DNA from: Pelagomonas calceolata
Lineage: Eukaryota > Sar > Pelagophyceae > Pelagomonadales > Pelagomonadaceae
Assembly: GCA_918797485.1 (NCBI GenBank)
Contig: CAKKNE010000005.1
Span: 62,001 to 126,000 of the forward strand
Length of the DNA stretch: 64,000 nt
Direction: 5' to 3'
The notes under the pieces are model-generated. The model had not been told where the DNA came from and searched no databases. It saw only the letters and a list, made by a program, of their open reading frames with translations. A program made the position numbers and the translations under genes. Of the stretch, positions 346 through 62,388 are shown in pieces; positions within the stretch are counted from its first letter, which is position 1, and each line of letters begins with the position of its first letter.

Positions 346-1041
346 CTGATATCAACCCTATGTATGTGCCGCGGGCTCCAGGCCTCCGGCGAAAAACGAC
401 CCCCCCCCATCGAGTCCCCCGCGCGGCGGCGATATGCTGCCGTGGACGGGACACCTATTAATAACCCCTATTATCTCGTGAATCTTTTTTGCCTTCGTCG
501 ATGGCGTGCTTGCCCCGATCCATTCCACGTGGAACCCGATCCGGCGTCGTCGTCTGGCGCCGAGGTATATATGAATAGTTTACTTCGGATGCCTGAGAAA
601 CCCGTTTTTCCGCCTTACTTATTGGCCGAGACCCCTCCCTAGGCGCCGCGATAGTTCCCAGGCGCTAGTATGTCTTACTTGCCGCTAGCTTTACAGCTTT
701 ACCAAGAGACAAAGATTAATTGGGGTTACGCAGTGCGGGCCCACAGCTAGCCGGCGACGCGTTAACTGTTAGCCGGAACCCTCCTGCGTGACAGCTTTCA
801 GCTCCGCAGACCAGCGCTCGCCTCCGCCCGCCGGAGAGAGCCGCTGCCTTGTCGAAACTTCGGCAGGTCTCAAGCGGACAGAGCGGCCGCGCGCGCCAGC
901 CAGGGCGTGCGCTCAGCTCAGCTCGGGAGACAGACGCCGCGAGCCGCCGCGCGTCTACGAGGGGCGCCGCCGACCGCGGTCAGCCCTCCGGGACGCACGA
1001 TAGGCAACGACAGCAGCAAATCGTCGGGCCAGCCGGCAAAC
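346..1041. other. Intergenic stretch with one promoter palindrome
   Basis: No convincing gene. The only structured signal is the palindromic element at 664-689, 353 bp before the Snf7 start. Short open frames here lack any family resemblance. Confidence 0.6.
664..689. promoter_or_regulatory. CTAG palindrome element, copy 1
   Basis: GCTAGTATGTCTTAC followed by TTGCCGCTAGC: inverted CTAG halves around a TGTCTTAC core. Lies upstream of the Snf7 gene. One of 13 copies in this window, all in 5' intergenic DNA. Confidence 0.55.
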
Positions 1042-1722
1042 ATGAACCTCTTCGGGCGGCGGCGGTCGAAGCCGCGGGGCGCCCCGGCGTCCAAGGACCC
1101 GGCGCAGACGATCGTGTCGTTGCGGGGCACCCTCGACACGTTGGAAAAGCGCCAGGCCCACCTCGACAAGCAAATCGCCAAGCAGGTCGCGGAGGCCAAG
1201 GCGAAGATGGCCAAAAAGGACAAGCGCGGCGCTTTATTTTGCCTTAAAAAGAAGAAGATGTACGAAGCGGAAATCGAGAAACTGAACGGCGCGCGCCTGA
1301 CCCTCGAGTCGCAGATCATCGCGCTCGAGGGCACGGTGACGAATGCGGACACCGTCGCGGCGATGAAATCGGGAGCGACCGCCATGAAGCACGCGCGGGC
1401 TGATGTCGACGCCGACGCCGTGGGTGATTTGATGGACGACATCCAGGAGGAGATGGCCACCGCCGACGAGATCTCGGCGGCGATCAGCGCTCCTGGCGGC
1501 GATTTGTTGGGAGATGACGAGCTGCTCGACGAGCTCAACGAGCTCGAGGAGCACGAGCTCGAAAGTCAATTATTGGACGCGCCGCCGATCCCCGTGGCGC
1601 CCCTGCCCGATGCACCGCTCTCAATGCCTGCGGTTCCGACGCAGCCGCCGGCCGCACCCGCGAAACAGGAAGATGCGGATCTCGCCGCGCTGCGGGAGCT
1701 CGAGGCGGCGATGGCGATGTAG
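1042..1722 (+). CDS. SNF7: ESCRT-III core subunit, Snf7/CHMP4 (VPS32) family
   Basis: A 226-residue protein with the Snf7 plan: a short basic N-terminus (MNLFGRRRSK), a long charged coiled-coil hairpin (about residues 20-115, including the KKDKRGALFCLKKKKMYE segment typical of CHMP4), then acidic autoinhibitory helices (GDDELLDELNELEEHEL, about 155-175) and a Pro-rich linker. The last residues, DADLAALRELEAAM, resemble the CHMP4 helix that binds Alix/Bro1 proteins. ESCRT-III filaments cut membrane necks in multivesicular body formation, cytokinesis and membrane repair. The ATG at 1042 is chosen because it starts the conserved basic helix; the frame is open upstream but with no family resemblance. 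No intron. Length fits the family (about 220 residues). Confidence 0.9.
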   Translation: MNLFGRRRSKPRGAPASKDPAQTIVSLRGTLDTLEKRQAHLDKQIAKQVAEAKAKMAKKDKRGALFCLKKKKMYEAEIEKLNGARLTLESQIIALEGTVTNADTVAAMKSGATAMKHARADVDADAVGDLMDDIQEEMATADEISAAISAPGGDLLGDDELLDELNELEEHELESQLLDAPPIPVAPLPDAPLSMPAVPTQPPAAPAKQEDADLAALRELEAAMAM

Positions 1723-1825
1723 TCCTCGGAGTAACGATTGACCTTTGTAGCTCGTGTCTTTTCGCGCGCAGCCGTGTTTGCTCTTACTACCCCTAGTCTA
1801 ACCCTTAAGATGGATAAGATGGATG

Positions 1826-2815
1826 TTACATCGGCCTGCAAGAGTCTACCGCGCTGGTGCCGGGAGGGGGGAAGCGGGCAGCAGAAGGAAACCTAAAACC
1901 CCCCGCATGCAGCAGTTTCTCCCTGAAGTACTGCGTAAAGCGCAGATTAGTCGTCGTTCGAGGCTCTCGACGTAGAATATCCATCAGCATAGGTCCTTGA
2001 ACACCGGGCGGGTTGTGAACGACCAAAGCTCGATTCCAACCTCTGTGCGCCTTGAGAACGTCGCACCCGTTTTCGATGAGGAACGTCGCCAGCTGATAAT
2101 GAGCTTTGGTTAGCCGCCCCGCGGTGAGGCACCAGCAGAGAGGGGTCGTGCCGATATCGCACTTAGGGTCGATGTCGCGGCCCGCCGCCAGAAGTAGCCG
2201 GGCGAATTTCATCGCTTCGCCAGGGGCGTACACCGCCAAAAAGTGTAGCGGATGTTTTCCACTGGGTCCGATCGAGGCGTCGAGGTCCGCTCCATAGGCA
2301 ACCAACGGAGAAACAAGTTCAAATCCCACAAAGAACTTTTCAGCAAAGAACCCGTCATTCCTCGCCGCGAGCGAGGTGACCAGCCCAAGCGTCCGCCCCG
2401 CCGCCCTACGAGACGCCAGGTTAGCGTGGGGCGCTCGATACGTTGTCCGCAGGATATGCTCCGCCTCGCGCACCGTGAGGCCGACGCCGCCGTAGCGTGA
2501 CCTTTCGGCCACGTCCGTGCCCTTGCGCAGCGCCGTCCGCGCCTCCAGGTCCTTCCCGGCCGCGACGACGAGAGCGGGGACCACGGCGTGCGAGGCAATC
2601 TTTGAGAGCACGTCGGCCGGCAGGTGCAGCAAACTTAGTCTCGTGCGCGCCGCTTTGCGCGTGAGACCGAGGGCCGCGGCCTTCATGCACCGGAACGTGT
2701 AATCGTCGATGGCGCCGTCGTCGTGCAAGCGCTTCAATTTCCGCAGCGCCTCCTCGTCGATGGGATAGGGGCCCACCAGCGGGGCGGCGCGGGCGGCCGT
2801 TTGCGATTCATTCAT
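1826..2815 (-). CDS. Ankyrin-repeat protein
   Basis: A 329-residue protein. The first third has LHDDGAIDDYTFRCMKAAALG and an LHLPADVLSKIASHAVVP segment that looks like a short F-box-like helix pair. The middle carries degenerate ankyrin repeats (HPLHFLAVYAPGEAMKFARL, then TTPLCWCLTAGR and a LATFLIENGCDVL helix). Ankyrin repeats are binding surfaces; no catalytic residues are seen, so no biochemical function can be given. The F-box-like reading would suggest a ubiquitin-ligase adaptor but is weak. No intron. It converges on the Snf7 gene, ending about 100 bp from it. Confidence 0.65.
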   Translation of the reverse strand: MNESQTAARAAPLVGPYPIDEEALRKLKRLHDDGAIDDYTFRCMKAAALGLTRKAARTRLSLLHLPADVLSKIASHAVVPALVVAAGKDLEARTALRKGTDVAERSRYGGVGLTVREAEHILRTTYRAPHANLASRRAAGRTLGLVTSLAARNDGFFAEKFFVGFELVSPLVAYGADLDASIGPSGKHPLHFLAVYAPGEAMKFARLLLAAGRDIDPKCDIGTTPLCWCLTAGRLTKAHYQLATFLIENGCDVLKAHRGWNRALVVHNPPGVQGPMLMDILRREPRTTTNLRFTQYFREKLLHAGGFRFPSAARFPPPGTSAVDSCRPM

Positions 2816-3174
2816 AGTCGCGTGTTGCGCGTTAGTTCGAGTTGCAATGTGACTGTCAGAGATGCACAGTCAGCTCTAGCAAATCGCTCTCGTATCCTTA
2901 CAGTTAAGCAAGTGAGCGTAGTTGCCGCGAAATATAACCCTGACTACTGCTTTTGCTCGAAGTCTAGGAGATGAAGCGATACAGAGATGACGATGCAGCT
3001 AAAATTTTATCTGAACTCGCCTGGGCGACCCGTCCTACGACCTGATTCGACGCGCTCGGGCTGATCACGGAGGGGTACGTACGCTTCTATCGTCATGTTT
3101 TCGCGCCGCCGATAGTTCCTGGGGAATATCGCGCCGGCGTTCGACGCGAGCATGGATATCACAAAACAAGCAAC

Positions 3175-5106
3175 TTAAGAAGCCACCGCCGCGACGTCCT
3201 GCGGGTCCTCGACGCCCGTCGCCGCGCCTACATCCGAGCACTGCCCGCCGATCACGGCCCGCGCCACGCGCAGCCCGTCGACGGCCGCGGAGACGATGCC
3301 CCCCGCGTAGCCCGCGCCCTCGCCGCACGGGTATAAGTTTTTGAGGGACACAGACTCGCATTCAGCATTGCGCACGACCCGTAACGGCGCCGACGTCCGC
3401 GTCTCGACGCCGTGGAGGATCGCGTCGTCGCCGACAAATCCGGGCATGGACCTTTCGAACGCGCCCGTCGCCGCGGCCCGCAGCGCGTCCGCCAAGGGAT
3501 CTGGGAGTAAGCCGTCGTGCAATGACGCCTCGCGCACGCCCAATCTATAGGACGACGCCGGCGGCGGTCTCTGACGCGGCGCTTTCTTGTCGACGAAATC
3601 GGTCAGGCGCTGGACGGGGCAGACGTAGTCGCCGCCACCCAAGAGAGCCGCCTTCCTCTCCAACGACCGCTGGAAGGCGAGGACGCGCCGCGCACCCTTC
3701 GTTTGATCCAAGCACGGGTCGTCCGTCGCAACACTCACGACCAGCGCCGCGTTCGCGAACAGCGAGTGCCGCCGCGAGTAGGACATGCCGTTGACGACCA
3801 TCTCCGACGGTTTTGTTAGAGCTGGAACAACTTGCCCCCCAGGACACATGCAGAAACTATATATGGAGTGGTCGCCGACGTCCGCCGCGAGTCTATATGC
3901 CGCGACCGGTAACAGAGCCTCCGAGTCCCTCGACAAAGCTTCGTCGGTCGGGTGCCTTAACAGATTGGCCTTGTCGGTTCTAGAATTGCCCGTGACGACG
4001 CGGCAGGCGAGGTCGCCGTAGGCCAGACCATTCACCAACGACTGCGGGTGCTCCACCCTAAAGCCGACCGCGACGGGCTTCGCCTCGAGTTTGGCGCCCG
4101 CGGCCTCGAGCGCGTCGTAGACGTCGTCGGCGCTGTGGCCCGCGGCGCAGACGACGGCGTCCGCATGTATCGTGGCCTCTCCGGCTTCGCCCAGCACGCG
4201 GACGCCGACGCACTCGTTATTTTCCGTCTCGAGGCCCAGCAACCGCGTGCCGAAGCGCAGGTCCACGCCGAGTTCCGTCAATTGCCCGCGCAGCGACTTG
4301 AGGATGCCGATGAGGCCGTCCGTGCCGAGGTGCGGCGCGCCCTGCGTCAATATTTCCGAAGGCGCGCCGTGGCGCACGAAGGTCCGCAGGACCGCGCGGA
4401 CGTCGCCCGAGTTGCGGCCGATGCGCGTCGTGAGCTTGCCGTCGGACCACGTGCCTGCGTCGCGTTCCCCCGGTCGACGGTCCCCACCACCACGCTTTCC
4501 TTAAGACGCCGCCGTCGCGCCCGCGCCGCCCTCGCCAAAGCAAAAGTTCGACTGCGCCTGGAGCTGGCGCCCCGCCATGAGCCGGCCGATGTCGCGGCCG
4601 CGGCGCTCGACGGGCTCGCCGCGCTCGATCAGTGTCACGGCGCAGCCGTCGGAGGCGAGCTGCAGCGCCGCGAAGAGGCCCGCGGGGCCCGAGCCGACGA
4701 CGACGACAGTGCGCTTCTTCTTCGTGTCCGTGACGCGCGCGGGCGCTACGGTCAAACCCTCGAGCCGCTCGCAGCGGCCCGGCTGCTCCGCGAGCGCGCC
4801 GGCGCACTCGACGTCCACGACGTAGGTCCAGCGCGGTTCGGGCAGCTTCTTCCGCACGTCGAGCGACTTGCGGACCACTCTTATTACTCGCCGGAGCCTC
4901 CCCTTTTTTGTCACGCGCTTCTTGCAGGCCTTCTTCAGCGCCGGCGAGAGCTGCGACGACGGCGCCGCGGCGCCGGGGTCCGCGCCCTGCGGCACGACGA
5001 CGTCATATAAGCGGTAGGTGCCGTGGAGCTTTGTTGGTTGCTTCGTGCGCGGTGGCGCGATGAGTGCGGAGGCTGCTGTTATGAGTGCTAGCAGGCGTGG
5101 CGCCAT
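3175..5106 (-). CDS. FAD-dependent oxidoreductase (COG2509-type), leader-bearing, one GC-AG intron
   Basis: Two exons, 5106-4521 and 4454-3175, give 621 residues in frame. The start MAPRLLALITAASALIAPP is a hydrophobic signal followed by a plastid-like leader. The dinucleotide site VVVVGSGPAGLFAALQLA is an FAD-binding Rossmann motif; it is followed by GRQLQAQSNFCFGEGGAG and, after the intron, TWSDGKLTTRIGRNSGDV and RHGAPSEILTQGAPHLGTD. The C-terminus has NLYPCGEGAGYAGGIVSAA, the second FAD site. This is the layout of the uncharacterised 'FAD-dependent dehydrogenase' family found in bacteria and plastids; the substrate is unknown. The 66 bp intron (4520-4455) begins GC and ends AG. This choice alone rebuilds the GGAGTWSDG junction and keeps the frame. 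A promoter palindrome lies 123 bp upstream. Confidence 0.85.
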
Positions 5107-5228: not shown

Positions 5229-5252
5229 GCTAGCTGCATGTAAGACACTAGC
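5229..5252. promoter_or_regulatory. CTAG palindrome element, copy 2
   Basis: GCTAGCTGCAT then GTAAGACACTAGC. Sits 123 bp upstream of the FAD oxidoreductase start (minus strand). Near-perfect match to the consensus of the 13 copies. Confidence 0.65.
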
Positions 5253-5362
5253 ATTAGCAACAACTGGACCCTAGACGCCTCGCCGCCAAGCCAAAAATGA
5301 TCCTCACAAAAGTGCGCCGCCCCACTGGCCCACGACCACAAGGCGAGGTGTATTGGATGTAA

Positions 5363-5850
5363 CACCCGCCACAAGGGGCAGCACGCGATGCACGAGCCGG
5401 TGGGCGGAGGTGGACTTACGCGAAGGCGCTCTACAAGGACGGCGCCTCCACGCTCGACGATCTGCGCAAGGCCGTGACGACGCTCGAGGATGTGGTGCCG
5501 ACCGCGCGGCGCGTGCTCGGAGGCGCACATCCTGTGACAGGTGCGATTGAGGCCGATCTGCAACACGCGCGAGCCGCGCTCCGCGCCCGCGAACAACCTT
5601 TGTTGCCGCTGGTCATCTCCGTCGCGGGCCCGCAGGGCGACGAAGTATACTTCAAGGTGAAGCCGACGACGCTGCTGCAAAAGATCTTCGACGCGTACGC
5701 CAATCGCAAGGGCGTCGCCGGCGATCGCTGCGCTTCCTTTTCGCTGGCGTCGCCGACGGCGAGCAGACGTGCGCGGACATTGGCCTGGAGGACGACGATC
5801 AGCTGAAGGCCGAGAATGCGCAGGACGCCGTCGCCGCGCGCGATGAGTAA
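5363..5850 (+). pseudogene. TPR-protein tail fused to a SUMO-like domain (remnant)
   Basis: The frame is open from 5363 but has no ATG. WTYAKALYKDGASTLDDL, LEDVVPTARRVLGGAHP and HARAALRAR match the C-terminal tail of the large kinesin-light-chain-like TPR proteins common in some algae. This runs directly into LPLVISVAGPQGDEVYFKVK and LLQKIFDAYANRKGV, a ubiquitin-like beta-grasp closest to SUMO. At about 5725 the frame must gain one base; the other frame then continues RFLFAGVADGEQTCADIGLE and ends DDDQLKAENAQDAVAARDE at the stop 5848-5850. It lacks a GG processing end, so it would not act as a conjugable SUMO. With no start and a broken frame it is probably a gene fragment or a C-terminal exon set. 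Ends 15 bp from the convergent TIP41-WD40 gene. Confidence 0.55.
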
Positions 5851-8639: not shown

Positions 8640-9187
8640 ATGCGCGAATTTTGGGGGCTTTAGCCCCCCATCTTCACCGCATGAGAGTGCCCTTGTGACT
8701 TGTAGGTCAAGCCCGACGGACCGGTGCCCGCGCCGACCTTTGCCTCGGGCGCGTGCCTTTTGTGAGGCCTTGTGTTGGCCTTTCGGTCCCGATCACAGCC
8801 GCGCCGCGAGGCCCAGGCCGCGGTCGTCTGCTCGCACGCTTGCAGACAACCGCGCAAGCAGCGTCGTCTCAAATGTTCCGCGCGCGGCGCGTGCAATCTC
8901 TCGAGAGCGTGGTAGTATTTCTACCCCACCGGCACGCCGTCGTCCCGCTTACGCCATCGACGCGACACGCCATCGACGCGACCCATTTTGAAGAAGCGTC
9001 GCTTCTCGCGCGCGTCGAACGCGAGGCGCACGCCCGACGCTTCGTGGCGCAGCGCGAGGAGGTTCCGCCCGTAGAGCGCCTCCGGCAGCTCCTGGTTCGT
9101 CGCGCGGCCGAGGCCGAGCTCGCGCTTCCAGGCCACCTGGCTGTCGGCCGCGAGGCTCCGCTTCGCGACGCTCAGGATGGGGGCGCG
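8640..9187. repeat. Tandem duplication unit A (nearly identical to 9778-10325)
   Basis: About 548 bp nearly identical to the segment 1138 bp downstream, including the hairpin GGGGGCTTTAGCCCCC near its left end. It carries a truncated TIP41 first exon on the minus strand. Confidence 0.85.
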
Positions 9188-9280
9188 TTTTGTTTTTATC
9201 GTCCAGCCGTCTTTCGTTGTGTGCTTTTTTGTTATTGCTTTGCCGGCTGCTAGTGTGGCGGCTTGTTCGTCGGGGTACAT
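8921..9280 (-). pseudogene. Truncated TIP41 first-exon copy 2
   Basis: From 9280 the frame starts MYPDEQAATLAAGKAITK and continues through the same WTIKTKRAPILSV and ELPEALYGRNLLALRH blocks as the complete gene at 8003. After GVRLAFDARE it leaves the family sequence for an intron-like stretch holding two GCGTCGATGGCGT modules, and stops at 8921. None of the TIP41 core follows. It keeps its own upstream palindrome (9448-9471). Possible products are a 119-residue truncated protein or none. Confidence 0.7.
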
Positions 9281-9447: not shown

Positions 9448-9471
9448 GCTAGCGGGCTGTAAGACACTAGC
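9448..9471. promoter_or_regulatory. CTAG palindrome element, copy 3
   Basis: GCTAGCGGGCT then GTAAGACACTAGC, 168 bp upstream of the truncated TIP41 copy starting at 9280 (minus). Confidence 0.65.
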
Positions 9472-20699: not shown

Positions 20700-22387
20700 A
20701 GAGACGCGACCTAGAGCTGTTTGAATGTCGTTCGGTTCGCTAATGGTCCAATGAGATCGATACGACGTTTCCTGAGAAGGCGAGGAACATACTCGCGGAA
20801 GTGCCCCGCTGCGACATTCGCGGATGAGTCTTACGTGTTGCCACAATACACCAGCGATTGACGCTGCCATCCACCGTCCAGATAGGACATTATATCAACT
20901 CCAGCCCAGTTTTCATACACAATCGACGGAACCGGAGCCGACGGCCCGCGCTCGGAGGGCGGGAGAAGAATTCCACTAGACAACTCCCGAGTTTATGTTC
21001 GTTTCCTTCCGTTTGTTAGTGGTAGAGTCCATCTAACCCGCATCGGCGCCCACTGAGCTATTTTAGATAGTCCGTTAGAGCCGCGAGATTCGTCGTCTTC
21101 GCGACCCCACGTTTTATGTTAAACGAGCATTGGAACTGAACCCGCGAGTATCAGCGACGCCACTACCCAGATGGACCATAACGCCGTCGTTCTATGCACG
21201 ATCGACCGACCTGCCCGTTCTCCGCGGACGACGGTGCGTACGCGGGGCACTGAATTGGCCCCAGACCGGTGGATTATAAAGTAAATTTGCGTTTCAGGCG
21301 CTTTTATTGTGGGACGGGCCAGATAACCGGCCTGAGCGGCTACTACATTGCTCGAGACCCCACGATGCTCGGCGCGGGTCGTCCATCCTGCGACCCCACT
21401 ATCTTCTACAGGGGGACATAGATCTTGGATCTGCGACCATCAGCCCGTGTACCTTCACCATGGACCATGACGCGATCATTTTTTCCATGACCGACGGACT
21501 TGCGCGAGGTCCAGATAAAGATGTTCACGTCCCGAGCGTGAGCAGCCAAAAGCACCCTTCTTATGATGTAGATGTCATATACTTGTAATTGACTATCGCT
21601 GGGGTAGTATGGGGTCCAACGAGACCGTTACGGCGACTACTGGGGGCCCTCGGGTAATTGACGTTTTTTACGGGAACGGGGCGCCATCGGGCCCAAATTG
21701 TTTACTTTTTCGGATGCAGATCGGCTCCCGGACTCCCTCGGGGGTAGGTCTGTGGTCGGGTAGTCGCCTACGCCGGATGCGCCGGTGCTTGGGGCTCTCC
21801 AGAGAGCTCTGGATCCAAAACCTTGGCATTTTGTGCTACAGACATCTGGCTTGAGATGCATCTTGGCAGATGTATCTCTGGCGGGAAGCGCCCGCGCATG
21901 CGGCGTAGGCGATTGCACATGTATTTAACCGACCATAAGCGGCCTCGGGGAGACCTCAGGACCACGAATCGACAGGATTCCACCGACGCGCCCGCCATGG
22001 CGGCGTCGTCAATATCGCGACATCAAGAAATTAATTTTTTTGGCCCGCAGTATGTGTCCCATTGATCGCTTTGGACCAGTAGCGAACCGAACGCTACTCG
22101 AGCGACTGCATGTCGTTTCCTGCTGGCTTGCTAGTGCCTTACATGCCGCTAGCTCGGCGTCTGGCCGGCCACGGGGTAGTGAGCTTTTACGCACATCTGG
22201 TCGCCGTACGCTGGCGCAGGAGTGCCACAGCACATACGCCATCGACGCTGCCGCAGCGCTGCGGGTCACCGCATACCCACAAACCAGGGTGTGCTCCTCA
22301 GTGACCAACCTGAGAGCACCGTCTCTCGGCGCGCACAGATCGAAATAGGCCACCAGTGACAGAGCTGCACGAACAGCAAGAGCCAAT
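20700..22387. other. Gene-poor stretch with tRNA-like boxes
   Basis: No supported protein gene. On the minus strand a T-loop-like GGGTTCAGTTCC (near 21140) precedes a clear D-arm/box A TAGCTCAGTGGG (near 21050), again in reversed order, but no acceptor stem can be paired. A palindrome element is at 22130-22153. Confidence 0.5.
22130..22153. promoter_or_regulatory. CTAG palindrome element, copy 4
   Basis: Reverse complement reads GCTAGCGGCAT then GTAAGGCACTAGC. Lies 235 bp upstream of the gene starting at 22388. Confidence 0.65.
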
Positions 22388-25919: not shown

Positions 25920-26175
25920 TTCGCGGTGTTTTTTTCTTGTGTGACGCTACTTAGGTACGCGGCGTGGAACCCCTCGGGTCCTCAAAACGGCCGCGCGGTC
26001 CGTGCGCCGCGTGCGCCGCGACGCGCGAGAGAAAAAAAAATTTCTTTCAATAAAAACGGGTTTTACGGGTCCATACTTGCCAGGGCTGGAAGGTGCGGGT
26101 AAGAGAGAGAGAGAGTCTGTGCGGGGAGGGGTTCGAGGCCTCGAGGCACGAAAGATTAAGTTCACAGGTACAAGT

Positions 26176-28569: not shown

Positions 28570-28591
28570 GCTAGTGTCTCACAACTCTAGC
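28570..28591. promoter_or_regulatory. CTAG palindrome element, copy 5
   Basis: Reverse complement GCTAGAGTT then GTGAGACACTAGC, 152 bp upstream of the SAP gene start (minus). Confidence 0.6.
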
Positions 28592-37011: not shown

Positions 37012-37036
37012 GCTAGTGTGTCAATAGAGCGCTAGG
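37012..37036. promoter_or_regulatory. CTAG palindrome element, copy 6 (divergent pair)
   Basis: GCTAGTGTGTCAAT then AGAGCGCTAGG. Between the La-related gene (start 36831, minus) and the ankyrin gene (start 37143, plus). More diverged core than other copies. Confidence 0.5.
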
Positions 37037-37142: not shown

Positions 37143-37895
37143 ATGGCCCAGGAAGATCCCGGGCCCCCGATTTTTGCTGCTGTCAGGGCCTTCGACGCCG
37201 AAGCGTTGCGGCGCGAACTTGCGGCTGGCGGCGAGGTTGACATGCTAGAAAACGAATGGTCAACCACCACACTTCTGCATTACGCGGTGTTTTGGCGGAG
37301 TAAGTACCCTGCGGAGCGTCTTCAGGAGCGTCTCGAATGCATATCGGTGCTTCTGGAGGCTGGTGCTTCAGTAGACTTGGTTACCGATGGACGAACGCCG
37401 TTGCAATGGAGTGTGACAAGCAAGTCCGCGGCATACCACGCCGTCATCGCAATGCTCTTGGAGGCAGGCGCCGATCCTAATTTCACGGACAGGACTTGGA
37501 CCTCTACTGAATATCATCGATCCGTGTTAGCCAGCGCAGCAGAGGAGGGTACGGCCGGCGCCGTCAGGCAGCTCATCGCTGCAGGCGCCGTGGATTTAGA
37601 TCGAGCATTGGAGCTTGCGATTGGTAGTGGCAAACAACGCAATTGCGCTCCGCTCCTGCGCGCCGGCGCGGCACTACCGGCCGTAATAACCGCGCCGCCG
37701 CAGTATCCGCCAAGGCGCGGTTTCCCGCAAACGCGCGCGTACATAGAGAACATCCGCGCGGCGGGAGGATACAAAGCCTACGAGAAGGCCCACCGCCAGC
37801 GCCTCGTGGCGATGTTCCTCCCGAAATTCCCTGCGCTTCCCGTCGAAATGGTCGAGCGCGTCGTCGATTTTTCATGGGATATTGGGGGTCACTAA
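37143..37895 (+). CDS. Ankyrin-repeat protein
   Basis: A 250-residue intronless protein from the ATG at 37143 (MAQEDPGPPIFAAVRAFDAE). Ankyrin repeats: TTLLHYAVFWRSKYPAERLQ with CISVLLEAGASVDLVT, then TPLQWSVTSKSAAYHAVIAM with LLEAGADPNFTD, and ASAAEEGTAGAVRQLIAAGA. The end (YIENIRAAGGYKAYEKAHRQ, then RLVAMFLPKFPALPVEMVER) looks like a shared C-terminal box with a final helix typical of a lineage-specific ankyrin family. Binding role only; no enzyme motif. Confidence 0.75.
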   Translation: MAQEDPGPPIFAAVRAFDAEALRRELAAGGEVDMLENEWSTTTLLHYAVFWRSKYPAERLQERLECISVLLEAGASVDLVTDGRTPLQWSVTSKSAAYHAVIAMLLEAGADPNFTDRTWTSTEYHRSVLASAAEEGTAGAVRQLIAAGAVDLDRALELAIGSGKQRNCAPLLRAGAALPAVITAPPQYPPRRGFPQTRAYIENIRAAGGYKAYEKAHRQRLVAMFLPKFPALPVEMVERVVDFSWDIGGH

Positions 37896-42122: not shown

Positions 42123-42146
42123 GCTAGCGTGTCGTAAGACACTAGC
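42123..42146. promoter_or_regulatory. CTAG palindrome element, copy 7 (divergent pair)
   Basis: GCTAGCGTGTC then GTAAGACACTAGC. Between the UvrD gene (start 42027, minus) and the phosphatase gene (start 42313, plus). One of the best palindromes: GTGTC and GACAC also pair. Confidence 0.7.
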
Positions 42147-43617: not shown

Positions 43618-43639
43618 GCTAGCGGCGTTAGGCACTAGC
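43618..43639. promoter_or_regulatory. CTAG palindrome element, copy 8
   Basis: GCTAGCGGC then GTTAGGCACTAGC, 181 bp upstream of the gene at 43820. Confidence 0.6.
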
Positions 43640-45808: not shown

Positions 45809-46720
45809 TTACCTCTGAACAAGATCCACCTTCCCGGAAGGCGCCGGCTCCTGGACGTACGCCAGCGACCGCAGTAGCGCCTCGATGATCTCCACCCTAT
45901 CATCCTCGCCGGACCCCAGTCCCAATAAAGGCTCCGGTGGCAATTGGACAGAAGACGCGTGCCGCAGCAACGGCCCGAGCCGAATCAACGCGTCGTCGCA
46001 GGGCCCGCGCAAGGGATGACCGGAAGGAAACGTCTCCGGCCCCATGCGCGCGCGCGCCACGATATAAGCCGCCGGATCCTCCATGCCAGGCCCGCTCTCC
46101 ACGGATTTGTGCGCGAGGACCATTTGTAGGAGCTTGGGCGTCGGTGTCGCACCATGCCTCAAAAACAGCAACGCGATCGTCCGCAGGCCCAATCCCAAAC
46201 CCTCGTGGGGCCGGTCGTCGGACGGGACCAATTGTAAGCCAGGCAACAAGCAGCAATCACAGAGAGCTTCAAGGACCTCCTTCGACCAGCTCACCGACGG
46301 GTTCGGCAGGCCCGCTCTTTTCAGAGCGTCCTCGCCCAACCGGAAGACGTTCGACAGTTCCGACGTCAACGACTGGATCGGCGCATTTAGAGCATCATCT
46401 CTCCCCAGACATGTTTTTTTATGTCTAGCCCAATCCGTTCTTTGACAATCCTTGCTACAGTACGACGCCTTGCCGCAGCGGCCGCAGCGTCGCGTCGCGC
46501 CCGGCCGCAAGCACGCCGCGCAGCACCTCAATGCTGATGCCGCGTCGGCCTTGCGCTCCCTTTGTTTAGTAGGAGGCGCGAAGGCGGTGCCGTCGAGGCA
46601 CTGCCTTACTAAAGCGCTCTTGCCGAATTGGCTCGTCGGCGTGTGGCTCCTTAATACCGCGTCGGCCGCTCGGTAGGCGTGCCGATGCGGCGGCGTCTGG
46701 GACGTGTCCATCGCGCTCAT
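45809..46720 (-). CDS. MYND zinc finger protein
   Basis: From MSAMDTSQTPPHRHAYRAAD (ATG 46720; a second in-frame ATG lies at 46795) the protein has about 303 residues. The MYND finger is CCAACLRPGATRRCGRCGKA then SYCSKDCQRTDWARHKKTC, complete with all eight Cys/His ligands. The rest is helical (LTSELSNVFRLGEDALKRAG, GLRTIALLFLRHGATPTPKL, PAAYIVARARMGPETFPSGH) with ankyrin- or TPR-like packing but no clear repeat. MYND fingers recruit Pro-rich partners, often chromatin or signalling proteins. No SET domain is seen. No intron. Confidence 0.7.
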   Translation of the reverse strand: MSAMDTSQTPPHRHAYRAADAVLRSHTPTSQFGKSALVRQCLDGTAFAPPTKQRERKADAASALRCCAACLRPGATRRCGRCGKASYCSKDCQRTDWARHKKTCLGRDDALNAPIQSLTSELSNVFRLGEDALKRAGLPNPSVSWSKEVLEALCDCCLLPGLQLVPSDDRPHEGLGLGLRTIALLFLRHGATPTPKLLQMVLAHKSVESGPGMEDPAAYIVARARMGPETFPSGHPLRGPCDDALIRLGPLLRHASSVQLPPEPLLGLGSGEDDRVEIIEALLRSLAYVQEPAPSGKVDLVQR

Positions 46721-46895: not shown

Positions 46896-46919
46896 TCTAG
46901 CGGAGTGAAAGACACTAGA
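46896..46919. promoter_or_regulatory. CTAG palindrome element, copy 9 (divergent pair)
   Basis: TCTAGCGGAGTGAAA then GACACTAGA, between the MYND gene (minus) and the WW gene (start 47255, plus). Confidence 0.55.
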
Positions 46920-47254: not shown

Positions 47255-48574
47255 ATGGCGGAACGCAAGCTCTCCGGCGTGCGCGTGTCGCTCCCGCGGT
47301 TGACGAGAGTACGAGCGGTCAGCCACGACCAGTACGGAGGCGCCACTTTAACCTACGACGACGAGCGCCGCGACTACGAGCTCTGCAAGCTCGAGAGCGT
47401 GCCCGGCGTGCGCGAGGACGACCCGCTGAATGGCGCGAAGGTCGCGTTGCCACCTCAAAACTACACCTGGGACGCCGAGCGGCTGCTCTGGGTCCATTCG
47501 AGAAGCAAGCAGCCCTACGCCGAGATGGCTCGTAGATCATTACCTAGATCGGATGAAGACGTTGAAAGGGACCCTCCCTCGGAAGCGATTGGATCGAGGT
47601 GCATGGCGTGGTCTTGGTCAGACGAGACACCCTCGTTGCGAAGGGCCACGGTCACGTCGCATTCTTGCGAAGGCGATGATTTGGGTTTATTGGGAAAGTG
47701 GACCCTGACGCTATCATCTGCGGGCACGAATCGAAGACCAACTACGATAGAGGTAAGAGCGCCGGAGCTCCGAGCCGCGTTGGACCTGAGACACCATGTC
47801 GATTGTCGAGGAGAGCCACCAGCACTCTCTCCAGAACTACGCCGACAAGGCTGGTCCGCAAAACAAAGTAGATCAACCGGCGACTGGTATTATGTTCATA
47901 CCTCACCGAATGGAGGCGCGACGAGCCAGTGGGAGCGGCCCGGCTGCGACTGGCCCAACGCTCCTTCTTGCGCGTGTTTGGGGCACCGGACGTCGACGCG
48001 CATCGATTCCCACCTAGATAGAATGGAACGCAAGGCGACGTTGGCTGCTTCCTGTCGCTCGAAGTACGCGGACTATGAACGGGCCCAAGAAGACAGGGCG
48101 ACGGAAGCATCTTCTCGCGGTGAGGCACCTGATAGCGCTTTACAAACGTATGCCGCGTGGTGCCGCGCGCGATGCGAGGCGTACTACGAATCGCCGCCCC
48201 ACTTGCAGCATCTGTCGGATGACGCGCCCGAACGGCGAGCCGACCTCGAGGCCCACGTGGACACGATGTACGGCTTGATGCGCGAGTACGACCACGTCGC
48301 GAGTGACTCCGAGTTTAGTGATGAGAGTGAAAGTGAGGATGAAAACGAGGACTTCAGCGAATTGGGTTTCAGTGATGTGAGGGTCCAGCGGTCGTCGAAA
48401 CGAAGGAGGACGGAGCGGGTCCTGCGGAGTGGATTGGAGCAGTTCATCGACTCGCCGGGAGTGGCTTCCCGCATCTTGCACGGCGACGGCTTCAACCGGA
48501 CGCGGTCGGGCGCGGTCTTCGGGGGGAAGCGCGACGAGAACTCGGACCTGCGCAAGCACCTCGACTTCGACTGA
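47255..48574 (+). CDS. WW-domain protein with acidic C-terminal region
   Basis: A 439-residue intronless protein. A WW domain is clear at about residues 205-235: GWSAKQSRSTGDWYYVHTSP then GGATSQWERP, with both signature Trp residues, the aromatic YYVH and the closing Pro. A second, weaker WW-like stretch is at residues 67-85 (YTWDAERLLWVHSRSKQPY). The C-terminal third has an acidic run (SDESESEDENEDFSELG) and a basic cluster (QRSSKRRRTERV), suggesting a nuclear protein. WW domains bind Pro-rich motifs, often in splicing or transcription complexes. A specific partner cannot be named. Confidence 0.7.
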   Translation: MAERKLSGVRVSLPRLTRVRAVSHDQYGGATLTYDDERRDYELCKLESVPGVREDDPLNGAKVALPPQNYTWDAERLLWVHSRSKQPYAEMARRSLPRSDEDVERDPPSEAIGSRCMAWSWSDETPSLRRATVTSHSCEGDDLGLLGKWTLTLSSAGTNRRPTTIEVRAPELRAALDLRHHVDCRGEPPALSPELRRQGWSAKQSRSTGDWYYVHTSPNGGATSQWERPGCDWPNAPSCACLGHRTSTRIDSHLDRMERKATLAASCRSKYADYERAQEDRATEASSRGEAPDSALQTYAAWCRARCEAYYESPPHLQHLSDDAPERRADLEAHVDTMYGLMREYDHVASDSEFSDESESEDENEDFSELGFSDVRVQRSSKRRRTERVLRSGLEQFIDSPGVASRILHGDGFNRTRSGAVFGGKRDENSDLRKHLDFD

Positions 48575-50262: not shown

Positions 50263-50284
50263 GCTAGTGTCTTACAACGCTAGC
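50263..50284. promoter_or_regulatory. CTAG palindrome element, copy 10
   Basis: Reverse complement GCTAGCGTT then GTAAGACACTAGC. Between the RING gene end and the OB-fold-like gene start (50537). Confidence 0.65.
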
Positions 50285-50536: not shown

Positions 50537-51358
50537 ATGGCCTACTGCGGCCCGACCCAGCTACGCAGCCAGGCGGCCCGGCCGAACCGGAGCAACCACC
50601 CGCCGCTCCGGGTCGTGATCCTGGTCACGTCGTTCGATCCATCCCCAACGCCAAAGAAGAAGATCCCGCGCCTCGAAATACACGGCGAGGACGGCGACGG
50701 CCGGAGCCGGTGCGTCTTCTGGCGGGGCGAGGCCGAGGCGGCTGTGAATTTGGTGGAGGTCGGCGCCGTCGTGTCGTGCGTCGTCCAGCGGAGCGACTGT
50801 GATGGTGCGGTCGTCGTGTGCGAGGGCTGCCGCGACTTGAGGGTCGAGTGGCGCGCCGGCGACGCGCCCCATGCAAAAGCGGTCGTCCAGCGCGTCGCCG
50901 GCGCGGCGCGGCCGGCGAAGCGGCCGCGGCCGGCGCCGCCGGCCGGGAGCTACTGGTCTCCCTTGCCGCTGGGCGCGGCCGTGCAAAGTCCGAAAAGCGT
51001 CTGGACGCGGGCCGCGATCAGCGTCGCGCAGCCGCGCATCGGGCGGGGCGAGTCGGATCAAGCCGTGGGCCGGCTGCTGATGATGGTCCTGAATGGCGAC
51101 GCGCCGCTGATCTTGCGCTTGCGCGGCGACGACGGCGCGTCAATTGATTGTAAGGCCACGCCGCAACTCGCGCGCGCGCTCCATTTCTGCCTCAGCGGCG
51201 ACGACGTCGACACGTGTGTCGCCCACGCAATCACCGCCGGGCAGAAGCACCGGCGCCTGCAGAATGGCATCCCGTCAATTGAGTGCAAGCTTTCACCGGG
51301 GCCCGTCGTCGCCGGGATAGCGCTCCTCAAGGAGGACGCGTCCTGGACACCCCCGTGA
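50537..51358 (+). CDS. OB-fold-like nucleic-acid-binding protein
   Basis: A 273-residue protein from the ATG at 50537 (MAYCGPTQLRSQAARPNRSN). PPLRVVILVTSFDPSPTPKK, PRLEIHGEDGDGRSRCVFW and VEVGAVVSCVVQRSDCDGAV form the beta-strands and turn of an OB fold, and CEGCRDLRVEWRAGDAP closes it. The second half has RAAISVAQPRIGRGESDQAV and GDDGASIDCKATPQLARALH, possibly a second small domain, with Cys residues that do not make a clear zinc site. RPA-like single-strand binding is a guess. No intron. The frame is open 36 codons upstream to an ATG at 50429, which is an alternative start. Confidence 0.5.
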   Translation: MAYCGPTQLRSQAARPNRSNHPPLRVVILVTSFDPSPTPKKKIPRLEIHGEDGDGRSRCVFWRGEAEAAVNLVEVGAVVSCVVQRSDCDGAVVVCEGCRDLRVEWRAGDAPHAKAVVQRVAGAARPAKRPRPAPPAGSYWSPLPLGAAVQSPKSVWTRAAISVAQPRIGRGESDQAVGRLLMMVLNGDAPLILRLRGDDGASIDCKATPQLARALHFCLSGDDVDTCVAHAITAGQKHRRLQNGIPSIECKLSPGPVVAGIALLKEDASWTPP

Positions 51359-56818: not shown

Positions 56819-56844
56819 GCTAGCGGCATGTAAGACACACTAGC
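56819..56844. promoter_or_regulatory. CTAG palindrome element, copy 11 (divergent pair)
   Basis: GCTAGCGGCAT then GTAAGACACACTAGC (two extra bases). Between ankyrin (minus) and FYVE-myotubularin (plus). Confidence 0.65.
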
Positions 56845-57056: not shown

Positions 57057-59608
57057 ATGGCCGCGAGACCCTGGATGGACGACGGCGCGAGCCAGCACTG
57101 CCTGCTCTGCCACCAGGCTTTTAGCTTTACGAACCGGAGGCACCACTGCCGGAGCTGCGCGCGCTTGGTCTGCGGCGCCTGCTCGAGCCGGAGCATGCGT
57201 TTGGAGAGCATCCAGCGGCCCTCGTCCTCAATACGAAATGTAGGGACCCAGCTGGCCAAGACGACGCTGGCCACGGCCGCCTCGATGCTCACCACCACTA
57301 CAAATGAATCGGAGCGCGTCTGCGACGACTGCTGGGCGCGGCTCGGCCGCGGCCGGAGCGCGACGCCGCCGCCTCCATCACATCACGCCGACGATGATGT
57401 AGCGTATGATGCTGAATTGATGGATGTGGCCGCCGACGGTATCAGAAACATAGCTCTGGAAGTACGGGCGCCCGACGGCCGCGTGCTCAGCGACGGGAAT
57501 TCGTTCAGTATGACATTGCCATCATCAACGCGCGTCGCGGGCGCCTACGTCATTGTTACGGCTCGTGATAAGTCCAAGTCGTCGGCAGTGAGGGACGACG
57601 TCGTGGGAAGAGGTCGCGTCTTCCTCGAAGAAGGCCAACGACATATCCAGTTGCTGCGCGACGGTGGTGTTAAGGGCACCGTACTGGTCAAAGCGACGCG
57701 GTCCTCGGCGAAGAAACCTCTACAAGTCGCGACGATACCACCTCAACGTCGAAACACATGTGGCCCGTGGCTTTATCAGAGTTGTACCCGCCCGGGACCA
57801 CGGTGCACGACGCCTGTTTTGAGCACATTAATGGTACCATAGTGCCCGCGTCAGAACAAGCTCTGGACGCCTTTGCCGACGTGGACAGAGGGTGCCTCAT
57901 AGTCACGTCGCACCGTTTTTTGCACGTGGCTCATACGTTAGATGTTATTAGTGTGCCGCACGCGTCCATCTTAAATGTGGAGGTCGTCCAGCGCGACGAC
58001 GCGTTGGTGCTGGTGCTGACGACGCGGTCCTATAAATCAATAACGTTCTCGTCGGCAGCGCCACCAATCGCGACTGGAGCTGGTGCCGCTCCGAGTGGCA
58101 GTGGCGCGTCGGCGAGGACCGCTTCTATGCGAGGCCGGAGGCTGTTGTGATCTGCGTGGAAATCAAATTTTGGACGCCCCACGCCATCGATGCGATGTTG
58201 TCTCCGTAGTAACCTAGCTCACTGGTTGATTTTCACACAGGTTGTGACGGCGGATCACGACGATAATGACGATGAAGATGAGGACACGGAGCTGCTCTCG
58301 AGGCTCGGCCTGAATGATCTCGACGACCGCGCATTGAGACGGAATCGGCTGAAGCGCTTCATCGAACCTCAGAAGGAGCGGGCGCCGTCACAAAGCGGCG
58401 CCGACGTCGACCTAGGAGCAGAGTTCGCCAGGCAGGGCGTGGCCACCGACGCGCGCTGGCGCTTTACGCAAGCGAATTCGAGTTATGACCTTTGTGCTAC
58501 GTATCCTCCTCTGCTCATCGTGCCGGCGGCGTTGAGCGACGCCCGACTCAAGGAAGGGTCCAGATGGCGGTCCAAGCGGCGCGTACCTGTCTTGACCTGG
58601 TACGATCGAGCTAGTGGTGCGGCCTTAATACGAGCATCCCAACCAAAGTCCGGCATCACGGGCGCTCATGTGGATGACGCCGCTCTCCTCCATGTGCGCG
58701 CGGCCGCCGCGCGGAGCCGCGGCGCCGTCGCGGCGCGCTTGGACGACCCGACGGCTTTTGATGATGAGGAAGGTTTTGCGAATAGTTCGCCGTACAAATC
58801 CACGACGGCGCCGATCTTGCGCATCTGCGACTGTCGTTCTATTGTAGCGGCCAAGGCGAACCAATTGGCCGGCCGGGGCCACGAGACTACCTCCAAATTA
58901 GGTGGTTCGAGGGCCGCGACGCTCGAGTTTCTGGATCTGGAGAACTTCCACGTCATTCGCAACGCCAAGAAACGGTTGTCAGAAGCTTCGACCTTGGAGG
59001 ACTACTACCGCGCGTTGCACGAATCGCGCTGGCCCGTCTACGTCCAAGCACTAATTAGTGCAGCGAAGGTCGTCGCGGATCATTTGGACAGAGGCGATCC
59101 TTGTTTTGTGCACTGTAGCGACGGCTGGGACCGCACGCCGCAAGTGTGTGCTTTGGCTCAAATAATAGTGGATCCCTACTTTCGAACAATAAAAGGCTTC
59201 GCCGTGCTCATAGAAAAGGACTTCTGCGCCTTCGGCCACCCCTTCGCAATGAGAAGTGGATCGAAGGGCGAGGGCGAAGCCGGTCCGGTCTTCGACCAGT
59301 TCCTGGAGTGCGTGCAGTCGCTGCGGCGGGGCGCGCCGGCGTCCTTCGAGTTCACTGAATCATTACTGGCGTTGCTCAAAGAACACGTGTATTCGCGGTT
59401 CTTCGGGAACTTTCTGAGGGACTCGGATGCGGAGAGGTGTGGAGACGACGCCGTGAGTGTGTGGAGGGTGGTTGAAAGTGATCCGGGGCGCTTTTCTTCG
59501 CCGGTCTACGACTCTTCTGCGAGTAGAAGGCTCCCGGTCCTCTCGAAACCGTCGGCGGATGTTGAACTAGAGCTGTTGAGGGCGCGTATACGGGCGCTCG
59601 AGAAATGA
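57057..59608 (+). CDS. FYVE-GRAM-myotubularin phosphoinositide phosphatase
   Basis: ATG 57057. A FYVE finger at residues 10-90: HCLLCHQAFSFTNRRHHCRS (with the PI3P-binding RHHCR), then CARLVCGACSSRSMRL and ERVCDDCWARLG. A GRAM/PH-like part follows (TMWPVALSELYPPGTTVHDA; RGCLIVTSHRFLHVAHTLDV). The myotubularin core has RWPVYVQALISAAKVVADHL and the catalytic loop VHCSDGWDRTPQVCALAQII (CSDGWDR), then KGFAVLIEKDFCAFGHPFA. Such enzymes remove the 3-phosphate from PI3P and PI(3,5)P2 on endosomes. Two one-base deletions break the GRAM part (about 57755 and about 58065; the second restores NRDWSWCRSEWQW). An introner (58144-58240) follows GEDRFYARPEA. The FYVE at the N-terminus is less common than at the C-terminus. 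Confidence 0.85.
58144..58240 (+). mobile_element. Introner element (97 bp intron) with TIRs and target duplication
   Basis: Ends CTGCGTGGAAATCAA and TTGATTTTCACACAG. GTTGTGAT (left) and GTTGTGAC (right) are the target copies; the left gives the donor. Interior has CACGCCATCGATGCGATG. Confidence 0.9.
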
Positions 59609-59623: not shown

Positions 59624-60087
59624 TTATTTGTCTTTATCCTCTTCCGAGTCGGAACTACTAATACTCCCCGCATGAAAATGGCTGTGGTCGTGGTCCTCGT
59701 CGTCCGAATCGGGCTCGGGCAGCTGCATGATGGACTCGGAGTAGGCGCTCATGGCCGCGAGCGCGACCTGCGCGTGGTACTCTCGCGCCGCGGCGACGGC
59801 GCCGAGCGTCCCGCGTCCACGCCATCGACGCGATCTCGGCCTCCGCGCCGTCGACGCGATATTCGTGGATAGAAGACGCCGCCGCAGACGCCGACGGCGT
59901 AGAGCCCGAACGCGCCGAGGAGCGCCAGGCACGCCCGCTCGATGCTCCGGTGGCCCGCGTACCTGGCGCCGCCGAACGTCACAATAACAGCGACGAGGCC
60001 GTAGGTTGTAATCTGGTCCCGCCGTGCCCGCCGCGCCTCGTCCTCGCGCCTTATCCGCGCCATCATCCGGGTCTCGCGGTCGCTCAT
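59624..60087 (-). CDS. Small two-pass membrane protein, two exons
   Basis: Exons 60087-59878 and 59767-59624 give 117 residues. MSDRETRMMARIRREDEARR is a charged start, then two helices: QITTYGLVAVIVTFGGARYA and RACLALLGAFGLYAVGVCGG. Exon 2 is VALAAMSAYSESIMQLPEPD then an acidic/His tail (SDDEDHDHSHFHAGSISSSD). The 110 bp intron holds GATCGCGTCGATGGCGTGG. No known family. Shares a divergent promoter region (palindrome 60262-60284) with the oxygenase gene. Confidence 0.6.
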
Positions 60088-60261: not shown

Positions 60262-60284
60262 GCTAGCGGCGTAAGGCCACTAGG
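60262..60284. promoter_or_regulatory. CTAG palindrome element, copy 12 (divergent pair)
   Basis: GCTAGCGGC then GTAAGGCCACTAGG. Between the small membrane protein (minus) and the 2OG oxygenase (plus). Confidence 0.6.
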
Positions 60285-60512: not shown

Positions 60513-61549
60513 ATGATCACACGGTGGCTCTTGACAGCACTCCTGCTCCGGCCCGCAACCGGCCTCGCCAAGGGCGGCTTCGCGGCAACCAAGCCGAAGA
60601 AAAAAACCAAGAAGGCCCCGAAGGCCCCGAAGCCCCTGGAGCCCCTGCCGCCGGGCCTGGACGGCGTCCCTCCCGTCTCGAGGTTCGAAGTCCTCAACGC
60701 TGATGGCATAAAACCGCAGTTCACGGGAGCCTTCCTCATAGAGGACGAATCGGTAGCCGACGACCTCGTGAAGGAGTTTCATGGGAGGCCCCAGCTCCGA
60801 GGCATGGTCTCGAACGCGGCGAACGGCGAGCCCGTCGTCGACACGTCCGTGAAGGACTCGCTGGAGATGTCCTTTCCCGCGAACGATCCCTCTATTGCTT
60901 GGAGAAGGTATCTGCTCTCACTCAAAGCGGCCATGGGTCTTTATCTCGAGGACTACCCGTATGCCGGGGCTTATGGAGCGTTCTCCATCACGGGACGGAC
61001 GAACGTCCAACTGTATCCGCCTTCAGGGGGCTACAAGACGTTTCACACCGAGCGCACGGGCCGGGGCGAACCCGAAGGCAGTCGTCATTTGGTGTTCATG
61101 ACCTATCTAAATGATGTCACTGATGCCGGTGCCGACGCGGCGTCTTCACTGAATCTTGAACGTGACGTGGACATTGGCCCTTGCGCCATCTTCATGAATC
61201 GTCTCCATCTTCCGATGAAGTGAGTGGTCGCTTTTCGGATTTTGAGTCTCTGGAAGACGTCGGGGCCGTCGCGGCATGTCGGAGAGCACGCGGTCGCGTC
61301 GATGGCGTCGCGACTGCGTCGTTCCCGCGCAGGTGGGACGGAGTTCTGCCACCAGAACCTGATCGTGCAGCCGAAGAAGGGCTTGACTCTGATTTGGCCG
61401 GCCGATTGGACGTTCACGCACCGCGGCGTGCCGTCGCCGACGCAGGAGAAGATCATCACTACCGGGTGGTCGCGTGCTGCGTTTAGAAATCAATTGCAAC
61501 GCGATTGGGACTCACTGGTTGATTTCCGCACAGGTTCAATTTCACGTAG
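60513..61549 (+). CDS. 2-oxoglutarate/Fe(II) oxygenase (prolyl-4-hydroxylase-like)
   Basis: Exons 60513-61128, 61333-61468 and 61534-61549 give 255 residues. MITRWLLTALLLRPATGLAK is a signal peptide, so the enzyme enters the secretory route or plastid. The double-stranded beta-helix is visible: TNVQLYPPSGGYKTFHTERT (iron His plus acid region), HLVFMTYLNDVTDAGGTEFC (after splicing), HQNLIVQPKKGLTLIWPADW and FTHRGVPSPTQEKIITTGWF, the last with the distal iron His and the oxoglutarate-binding basic residue. Likely a peptide hydroxylase; substrate unknown. Intron 1 is 204 bp, intron 2 is an introner whose removal ends the protein at GWFNFT. Ends 33 bp from the convergent Lys-rich gene. Confidence 0.85.
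61469..61533 (+). mobile_element. Introner element (65 bp intron), older copy
   Basis: Left end GCGTTTAGAAATCAATT and right end GGTTGATTTCCGCACAG are decayed forms of the inverted ends at 42436. No clear target duplication remains. Splice TGG/TTCAATTTC keeps the 2OG frame. Confidence 0.75.
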
Positions 61550-61582
61550 TCTTCGCGAGTAAATATACTGTCCTTAAGACTG

Positions 61583-62132
61583 CTACTTCTTTTTCTTGCG
61601 GGCGGGCGACTTCCTCTTGGCGGGCGACTTCTTGGCGGTCGGTTTCTTCGCGGGCCTGCGCCGGGGTTTCGCGTGGCGCCGCGGCGACGGCGCGGCGGTG
61701 GACGCCGGGCTCGCACGACTTCTTGGCGGCGGGCTTAGCCGCGGGTTTCCGGGCCGCGGGTTTCGCGACGGTCTTCTTTTTCACCGGAGATTTGGCTGCG
61801 GGCTTGCGCGCCGGCTTCTTCGCGGGCCTGCGTCGGGGACCGGTCGACGCCATCGATGCGACGACAATCGCGCCACGGACGCCGAGCTCGTACGACTTCT
61901 TGGCCGCCGGCTTCTTCTTTTTGGCGGCGGCCGGGGGCCCGCTGCCCGATCCCGCGCGGAGCCGCGCCAGATCGTCGCGGCTCGCCTTGTCGATGGGCTC
62001 CTCGTAACTCTTGAACTTCGACGCTTCGTACTTGAAGTACAGCTTCTTCGAGTCGCTGCGCGCGATGTAGCCCGGGTACCAGGTGCCGTTCACCTCGTAG
62101 TCGACCGAATCTCCTACGACCCATTTGACCAT
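61583..62132 (-). CDS. Tudor-like domain with histone H1-like Lys-rich tail, three exons
   Basis: Exons 62132-61894, 61827-61717, 61655-61583 splice to 140 residues. The N-terminus (MVKWVVGDSVDYEVNGTWYP, GYIARSDSKKLYFKYEAS) is a small beta-barrel of Tudor/Agenet type with the aromatic WYPG.I loop, which may read methylated Lys or Arg. The tail is repeats of KKPA/KSP (AKKPARKPAAKSPVKKKTVA; SPAKKPTAKKSPAKRKSPAR) like H1 or HMG tails and would bind DNA. Introns of 66 and 61 bp follow the same AAGAAGTC and precede the same GCCCGCGAAGAA, so the intron and repeat probably multiplied together. Chromatin role inferred. Confidence 0.75.
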
Positions 62133-62365
62133 GGCTGTGCTTTCTTCAGGCGTAGCACTTGCCTCCGATGATTCGTTCGCCCCGATTTTGCAAATCGGAG
62201 CAGGCTGAGAGCAGCCTCTCTGGTGCTCGATTGGTGGGCGTCGGGCAAATGTGCAGCGCGCGCAGCTAGCTGGGATACGCGTGGGCACAAATAATAGGCT
62301 TTTAGCCGCCTGGACGACCGCTGGGCCAGCGATCAGAGCCAAAAAAAAGAGGCGCCGAGGTCGGA

Positions 62366-62388
62366 ACTAGCGAATGTAACACACTAGG
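62366..62388. promoter_or_regulatory. CTAG palindrome element, copy 13 (divergent pair)
   Basis: ACTAGCGAATGTAACA then CACTAGG, between the Tudor/H1-like gene (minus) and the DEAD-box gene (plus). Confidence 0.55.

Follow-up and report, generated by a model that had tools for sequence, protein, structure and literature searches.

Which process places the same short CTAG palindrome upstream of one gene after another in the alga Pelagomonas calceolata? In the 64-kb stretch of DNA analysed here (the window), thirteen copies had been recognised in an earlier note, and all 13 were confirmed at the positions given below, together with one weak copy absent from that first list.

664..689, minus strand: element copy, 352 bp upstream of the Snf7/ESCRT-III gene at 1042-1722 (plus)
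5229..5252, plus strand: element copy, divergent gap between 3175-5106 (minus, FAD-dependent) and 5357-5850 (plus, Rad60-SLD-like)
9448..9471, plus strand: element copy, 167 bp upstream of the predicted gene at 8921-9280 (minus)
22130..22153, minus strand: element copy, 234 bp upstream of the gene at 22388-25178 (plus)
28570..28591, minus strand: element copy, 151 bp upstream of the gene at 25233-28418 (minus)
37012..37036, minus strand: element copy, 180 bp upstream of 34710-36831 (minus, La domain below Pfam's cut-off)
37224..37249, plus strand: additional weak copy, matrix score 14.1
42123..42146, plus strand: element copy, divergent gap between 39093-42000 (minus, HNH and UvrD helicase) and a gene from 42313 (plus, dual-specificity phosphatase)
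43618..43639, plus strand: element copy, 181 bp upstream of an ATG open reading frame at 43820-44569 (plus), placed in an intron by the gene caller
46896..46919, plus strand: element copy, divergent gap between 45809-46711 (minus, MYND finger) and 47255-48574 (plus)
50263..50284, minus strand: element copy, 252 bp upstream of the gene at 50537-51358 (plus)
56819..56844, plus strand: element copy, 212 bp upstream of 57057-59608 (plus, myotubularin phosphatase)
60262..60284, plus strand: element copy, divergent gap between 59624-60087 (minus) and 60513-61223 (plus)
62366..62388, plus strand: element copy, divergent gap between 61542-62132 (minus) and 62581-64532 (plus)

The claimed distance of about 95-355 bp from a start codon agreed well with our predictions (the 12 copies other than the one at 43618 lie 104-352 bp from the closest predicted start), and the neighbouring genes fell in unrelated Pfam families, as had been proposed. 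The count of six copies between divergent genes was not reproduced exactly; with our crude gene calls, five of the 13 lay in divergent gaps and seven in tandem gaps, and the remaining copy (43618) was inside a called 437-bp "intron" of a gene that the caller had possibly merged. No Rfam family matched the window at the gathering threshold.

The element is far more abundant than these 13 copies. An alignment of 108 copies gave the consensus a-GCTAGCGKC-(spacer)-GTAAGACACTAGC-aa, with a length of 20-26 bp and an information content of 32.5 bits over 22 positions, and its architecture is an imperfect inverted repeat of CTAGYGKC. Beyond its ends, the similarity among these 108 copies was gone within about 4 bp. 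A matrix composed of two halves with a flexible spacer detected 62 sites in 314 kb, versus 0.6 expected from five third-order Markov control sets, in which the mean number of matches per 314 kb was 0.2 at a score of 16 and 0.0 at a score of 18. Each of the 13 listed sites scored at least 20; because the DNA used to train the matrix included these sites, an independent test is provided by counting the exact core GTAAGACACTAGC across the genome, where it occurred 1,741 times, versus 0 for the reversed pattern. The looser pattern CTAGCG-N4-12-ACTAG occurred 4,601 times genome-wide, versus 164 in the control.

In terms of location, the element was confined to the 5' sides of genes. According to our own HMM gene predictions for the 314 kb, which may merge adjacent genes, it was present in 34 of the 59 gaps between divergent genes, in 22 of the 74 between tandem genes, and in none of the 60 between convergent genes (divergent versus convergent, p=4.5e-14). 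These figures bear out the earlier statements that no copy lies in a coding exon (0 of the 62 sites in predicted coding sequence) or at a 3'-3' junction, and a comparison of gap classes was the check that the earlier note had suggested. Four of the 62 sites occurred in called introns (193, 340, 385, and 437 bp long), which we suspect are artefacts of genes merged by the caller, and one was at a sequence edge. Exactly one element was found in 55 of the 56 element-bearing gaps, and in divergent gaps it was central (median asymmetry 0.18, n = 34). At the 23 tandem sites, the strand relative to the gene was the same in eight and opposite in 15, a lean that was not significant (p=0.21); an orientation-bound core promoter element of the TATA type was rejected for this lack of a fixed strand. 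The element occurred within 450 bp of 82 of the 177 predicted genes. A word search of the promoters that lacked it (95 genes; 25 of the 59 divergent gaps) yielded no clear alternative element.

At a fixed distance from the element, we observed a feature that goes beyond the earlier note, a CpG-poor, CA-rich, initiator-like zone at 140-170 bp. In 68 gene-side arms, the observed/expected CpG ratio dropped to 0.76 at this distance, whereas alignment of these arms on the ATG (-100 to +50) gave no dip (1.04-1.23), which means that the zone is locked to the element and not to the start codon. The dip was seen in divergent (0.82) and tandem gene-side (0.86) arms, was replicated in a second, separate group of 46 sites (0.95 at 140-185 bp versus 1.23 at 100-140 bp), and recurred in contigs of a related alga (0.81, 24 arms). 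The sense-strand words CACTG and CAGAG peaked at 150-170 bp from the element, with a modest peak in the separate site set. Raw CA counts rose at 140-180 bp and TG counts did not, as expected for an initiator zone on the sense strand. The element would stand about 150 bp before the probable transcription start of many genes. T5 tracts clustered close to the element (33 of 61 at 40 bp or less) and had a second peak at 100-120 bp; A5 tracts were more widely scattered.

The general promoter-type element suggested in the earlier note, for example a divergent-promoter factor site, is supported by the placement in gaps, the lack of excess flanking duplications (see below), and the lock to the zone about 150 bp away. 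We consider it likely, from sequence evidence, that an abundant, lineage-specific general regulatory factor binds the element and organises promoters in pelagophyte algae. A putative dimeric or multi-domain protein would read the two inverted CTAGYGKC half-sites and the asymmetric GTAA core, with tolerance for the flexible spacer, and a single bound copy would set up transcription about 150 bp away, from one side of the element in tandem promoters and from both sides in divergent promoters. We infer such a protein, together with nucleosome depletion around its site, activation, and the actual transcription starts. Finding about 6,400 places in this genome would take about 13.3 bits; the information in the site is more than twice that, and on a tentative reading two proteins, or one with a very large footprint, would read it.

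A possible reading, in line with the nucleosome-positioning site named in the earlier note and compatible with the promoter-factor explanation although clearly less probable, is that the element is a nucleosome phasing or boundary site, at which a barrier factor would hold nucleosome arrays in register and CG methylation of the first linker would have left the CpG dip at 140-170 bp as a scar. The dip is about 30 bp wide and locked to the element, T tracts adjoin the element, and normalised TpG and CpA were both elevated. Methylase matches were also present, among them an open frame of 2,236 aa with an SNF2 domain after it, which we take to be DNMT5-like. In several marine algae, methylation occurs almost exclusively in linkers, according to PMC5728721. 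On the other hand, raw CA but not TG counts rise at 140-180 bp, and because of this asymmetry we rank linker methylation below an initiator zone as the source of the dip; in addition, no second dip stood out clearly near 330 bp. The tandem upstream arms lacked a deep dip (1.33, n = 21), but this argument for a gene-side-only effect is weak, because 12 of the 23 upstream arms enter the adjacent gene within 165 bp, and in the remaining 11 the dip is at best shallow (1.18 at 140-170 bp, flanked by 1.42 and 1.44).

It is unlikely that the element is an insulator that prevents interference between divergent neighbours. Its central position between divergent genes would suit this role, but 22 of the 74 tandem gaps carry it at a similar distance from the start, and none of the 60 convergent gaps does.

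The spread of a miniature transposon or another repeat with a preference for promoters, raised as an alternative in the earlier note, is largely refuted, and we regard it as very improbable. Although the near-identical copies number in the thousands and their ends are imperfectly inverted, flanking duplications were not in excess at k=2, 3, 4, 5, 6, or 8, since between 21 and 200 of the 200 permutations, depending on k, reached the observed counts. The rapid loss of similarity past the ends (8 flank pairs matching at E<1e-3 among the 108 copies), the size of 20-26 bp with a variable spacer, the single copy per promoter, and the constant distance to the initiator-like zone all argue against such spread, and insertions outside promoters, expected of a miniature inverted-repeat transposon, were not found in the 314 kb. 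Furthermore, in the related alga, at 76-90% DNA identity, 7 of 10 elements fell inside blocks that align with this genome or no more than 2 bp from the border of such a block, indicating that their positions have been kept. Placement, orientation, and flanks also dismiss an RNA hairpin acting in 5' UTRs, which is hardly credible despite the inverted CTAGC/GCTAG arms, given the inconsistent strand relative to the gene (8:15), the imperfect pairing of the arms, and a position upstream of the inferred initiator zone.

Among known systems, we read the element as an apparently new example of a general-regulatory-factor-type site, comparable with those of yeast Reb1 and Abf1 and the vertebrate CGCG element. 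The yeast factors Reb1, Abf1, and Rap1 use one strong site per promoter, beside A/T tracts, in the tandem and divergent promoters of many unrelated genes, and the algal element resembles their sites in each of these respects; however, it is much longer (20-26 bp, 32.5 bits), has a flexible spacer, and appears to differ in sequence from their consensuses. The X-box of RFX is likewise an imperfect inverted repeat whose spacer is variable, but differs in half-site sequence and target genes. The vertebrate CGCG element TCTCGCGAGA is another general palindromic element; according to PMC6192621, it acts in TATA-less promoters, where it drives bidirectional transcription from divergent starts; in contrast to the algal element, found at 82 of 177 predicted genes, it is 10 bp long, has another sequence, and lies in a CpG-island setting. 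In the literature searched on Pelagomonas calceolata, we found no description of such an element. A broader proposition, which we advance tentatively, is that one lineage-specific factor with no relationship to the known general regulatory factors is responsible for organising roughly half the promoters of a major ocean-algal group, with the start on each transcribed side lying about 150 bp from the element.

Because the element marks close to half of the predicted promoters, promoters could be located without transcript data. It could also serve as bait for its putative factor and offer pelagophyte genetics a short natural promoter that would work in both directions, and it makes general promoter construction in a divergent eukaryotic lineage testable.

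Viral carriage was rejected, as neither the long nor the gapped pattern matched viral contigs, in a collection that may omit records near this genome. A 22-mer of the element was present in two marine "Spirochaeta" bins; the matching stretches were 85% (L074) and 90-96% (L075) identical to this genome, so these bins probably contain misbinned algal contigs, and a bacterial origin was rejected. The window looks to fall within the C1/C5 duplication reported for this genome in PMC9481584, and C1 carries the same element strings, offset by about 60 bp.

The element is a genuine general promoter element distributed genome-wide, and most likely serves as the binding site for a general regulatory factor specific to this lineage. 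All 13 sites listed in the earlier note were present in the window (G000:C5:62001–126000). Throughout the genome (G000; 32,445,274 bases in 8 contigs), the exact core GTAAGACACTAGC occurred in 872 + 869 copies and its reversed pattern in 0 + 0, and the looser pattern CTAGCG-N{4,12}-ACTAG had 2,264 + 2,337 matches, against 89 + 75 for the reversed control. When 314 kb of contiguous DNA (C5:62001–326000 and C2:1000001–1050000) was scanned at a score of 12 with a site matrix of two halves and a free spacer, trained on the same 314 kb, 62 sites were found, whereas five length-matched sequences generated by a third-order Markov model gave 0.6 on average. This density extrapolates to approximately 6,400 elements per genome, a rough estimate because one region supplies 264 of the 314 kb. 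The same element strings as in the window occurred on C1, offset by approximately 60 bp, and the window seems to lie within the large duplication common to contigs 1 and 5 described in PMC9481584.

The sites were strongly associated with the 5′ sides of genes. According to the gene models from our own HMM caller (195 genes), divergent gaps held 34 sites, tandem gaps 23, and called introns four (193, 340, 385, and 437 bp), and one site was at a sequence edge; none of the 62 was in predicted CDS, although CDS constituted 71% of the surveyed DNA. Counted by gap, an element was present in 34 of the 59 divergent and 22 of the 74 tandem gaps but in 0 of the 60 convergent ones (divergent versus convergent, p = 4.5e-14; divergent versus tandem, p = 0.0015). 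When only gaps of 150–500 bp were considered, the corresponding counts were 29 of 41, 15 of 43, and 0 of 17. By these gene models, the earlier note's statement that no copy lies in a coding exon or at a 3′–3′ junction held throughout the 314 kb. The median distance to the predicted ATG was 185 bp, and 82 of 177 predicted genes (those with CDS ≥300 bp) had an element within 450 bp upstream. Relative to the gene, tandem sites were on the same strand in eight cases and on the opposite strand in 15.

The genes adjoining elements belong to mutually unrelated families. A Pfam scan of the longest exon of each of 20 predicted genes (E ≤ 0.001) gave matches for nine, some not adjoining an element; families near elements were Snf7, FAD-dependent protein, Rad60-SLD, HNH-UvrD helicase, dual-specificity phosphatase, MYND finger, and myotubularin. 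At window 41230–42000 (−), a single exon encoded an HNH endonuclease domain followed by a UvrD helicase N-terminal domain. A 4.8-kb stretch (window 29878–34709) contained neither a called gene nor an element.

The anatomy was examined in 108 copies: the 62 from the 314 kb and 46 others, 40 of which lie on C1 outside the duplication and were selected for having the exact core. Their consensus was a-GCTAGCGKC-(spacer)-GTAAGACACTAGC-aa, with a spacer of −2 to 4 (2 in 54 of 108 copies). When the right end is reverse-complemented, it reads CTAGTGTC, a version of the same half-site as the left CTAGCGKC, so that the two ends form an inverted pair; the GTAA core is asymmetric. The information content was 32.5 bits over 22 positions and faded out within approximately 4 bp of the element ends; by computation, specifying 6,400 sites needs approximately 13.3 bits. 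Flanking duplications, which the earlier note had named as the mark of a spreading transposon, showed no excess in these copies, and eight pairs had flank-to-flank matches at E < 1e-3. No account of such an element was found in the open-licence literature searched, papers on Pelagomonas among it; the kind of element is known, and its sequence, lineage, and scale appear to be new.

At 140–170 bp from the element centre, the CpG observed/expected ratio fell to 0.85–0.93, from approximately 1.2 nearer and 1.3 farther (108 sites, both arms), whereas GpC shifted less (1.25–1.31 versus 1.36–1.46 just before). The CpG contrast was −0.38 (bootstrap 95%, −0.46 to −0.31), a value that none of the 500 jittered and none of the 500 rotated controls attained. 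The ratio in the dip was 0.82 in divergent arms (n = 68) and 0.86 in tandem gene-side arms (n = 21). Tandem upstream arms showed no dip (1.33, n = 21), a weak control because 12 of 23 such arms reach the neighbouring gene within 165 bp; the remaining 11 gave 1.18 at 140–170 bp, flanked by 1.42 and 1.44. The dip stayed at 140–170 bp when the ATG was <165, 165–205, or >205 bp away (0.89, 0.82, and 0.81), although it was broader in the first class, and it was absent when the same arms were aligned on the ATG (−100 to +50). On the sense strand, A exceeded T from approximately 133–140 bp, where raw CA counts rose and TG counts did not. CACTG and CAGAG were maximal on this strand at 150–170 bp; their combined peak was stronger in the 314 kb set than in the separate one and was absent from upstream arms, where counts were small. 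T5 tracts were concentrated within 40 bp of the element (33 of 61), another peak, of 18, lying at 100–120 bp, and A5 tracts were less so (47 of 154).

We read this as a putative zone of transcription starts that precedes the ATG by roughly 40 nt. Two observations support the alternative reading, a methylated nucleosome linker. The genome encodes a 2,236-aa open frame (C1:2768699 onward, L076) with a C5 methylase and then an SNF2 domain, which we take to be DNMT5-like. In several marine algae, methylation is almost confined to linkers, according to PMC5728721.

The CpG dip recurred (0.81) in 24 arms of contigs from a related alga (L074, L075, and L077–L081). The 22-mer was also found in two marine bins labelled Spirochaeta, whose contigs L074 and L075 matched the algal genome at 85–96% in aligned stretches. 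Loose matches (12 on six contigs of L074's bin, one in L075's) were far below the reversed controls (66 in the whole bin and 176, respectively), and therefore each bin is mostly other DNA. L074, L077, L078, and L079 were 76–90% identical to the Pelagomonas genome in the main collinear blocks. By position relative to these blocks, three of their 10 elements were inside aligned blocks, four were no more than 2 bp from an edge, and three were outside collinear blocks; those at edges are as would be expected of a conserved island amid drifting intergenic DNA. L075 aligned to C1:2154808–2156458, which has a copy of the GTAAGACACTAGC core at C1:2154918. Within L075:1200–3600, the long algal match began only at 2043, and this stretch may be chimeric. 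L077:299–455 is a dispersed repeat of approximately 157 bp, possibly an introner-type element, with at least 39 matching places across all six large contigs of the Pelagomonas genome. In the intergenic DNA of the window and the other stretches examined (L009–L033), ACGCCATC / GATGGCGT and GGGCAGCC were over-represented, the former pair also in convergent gaps.
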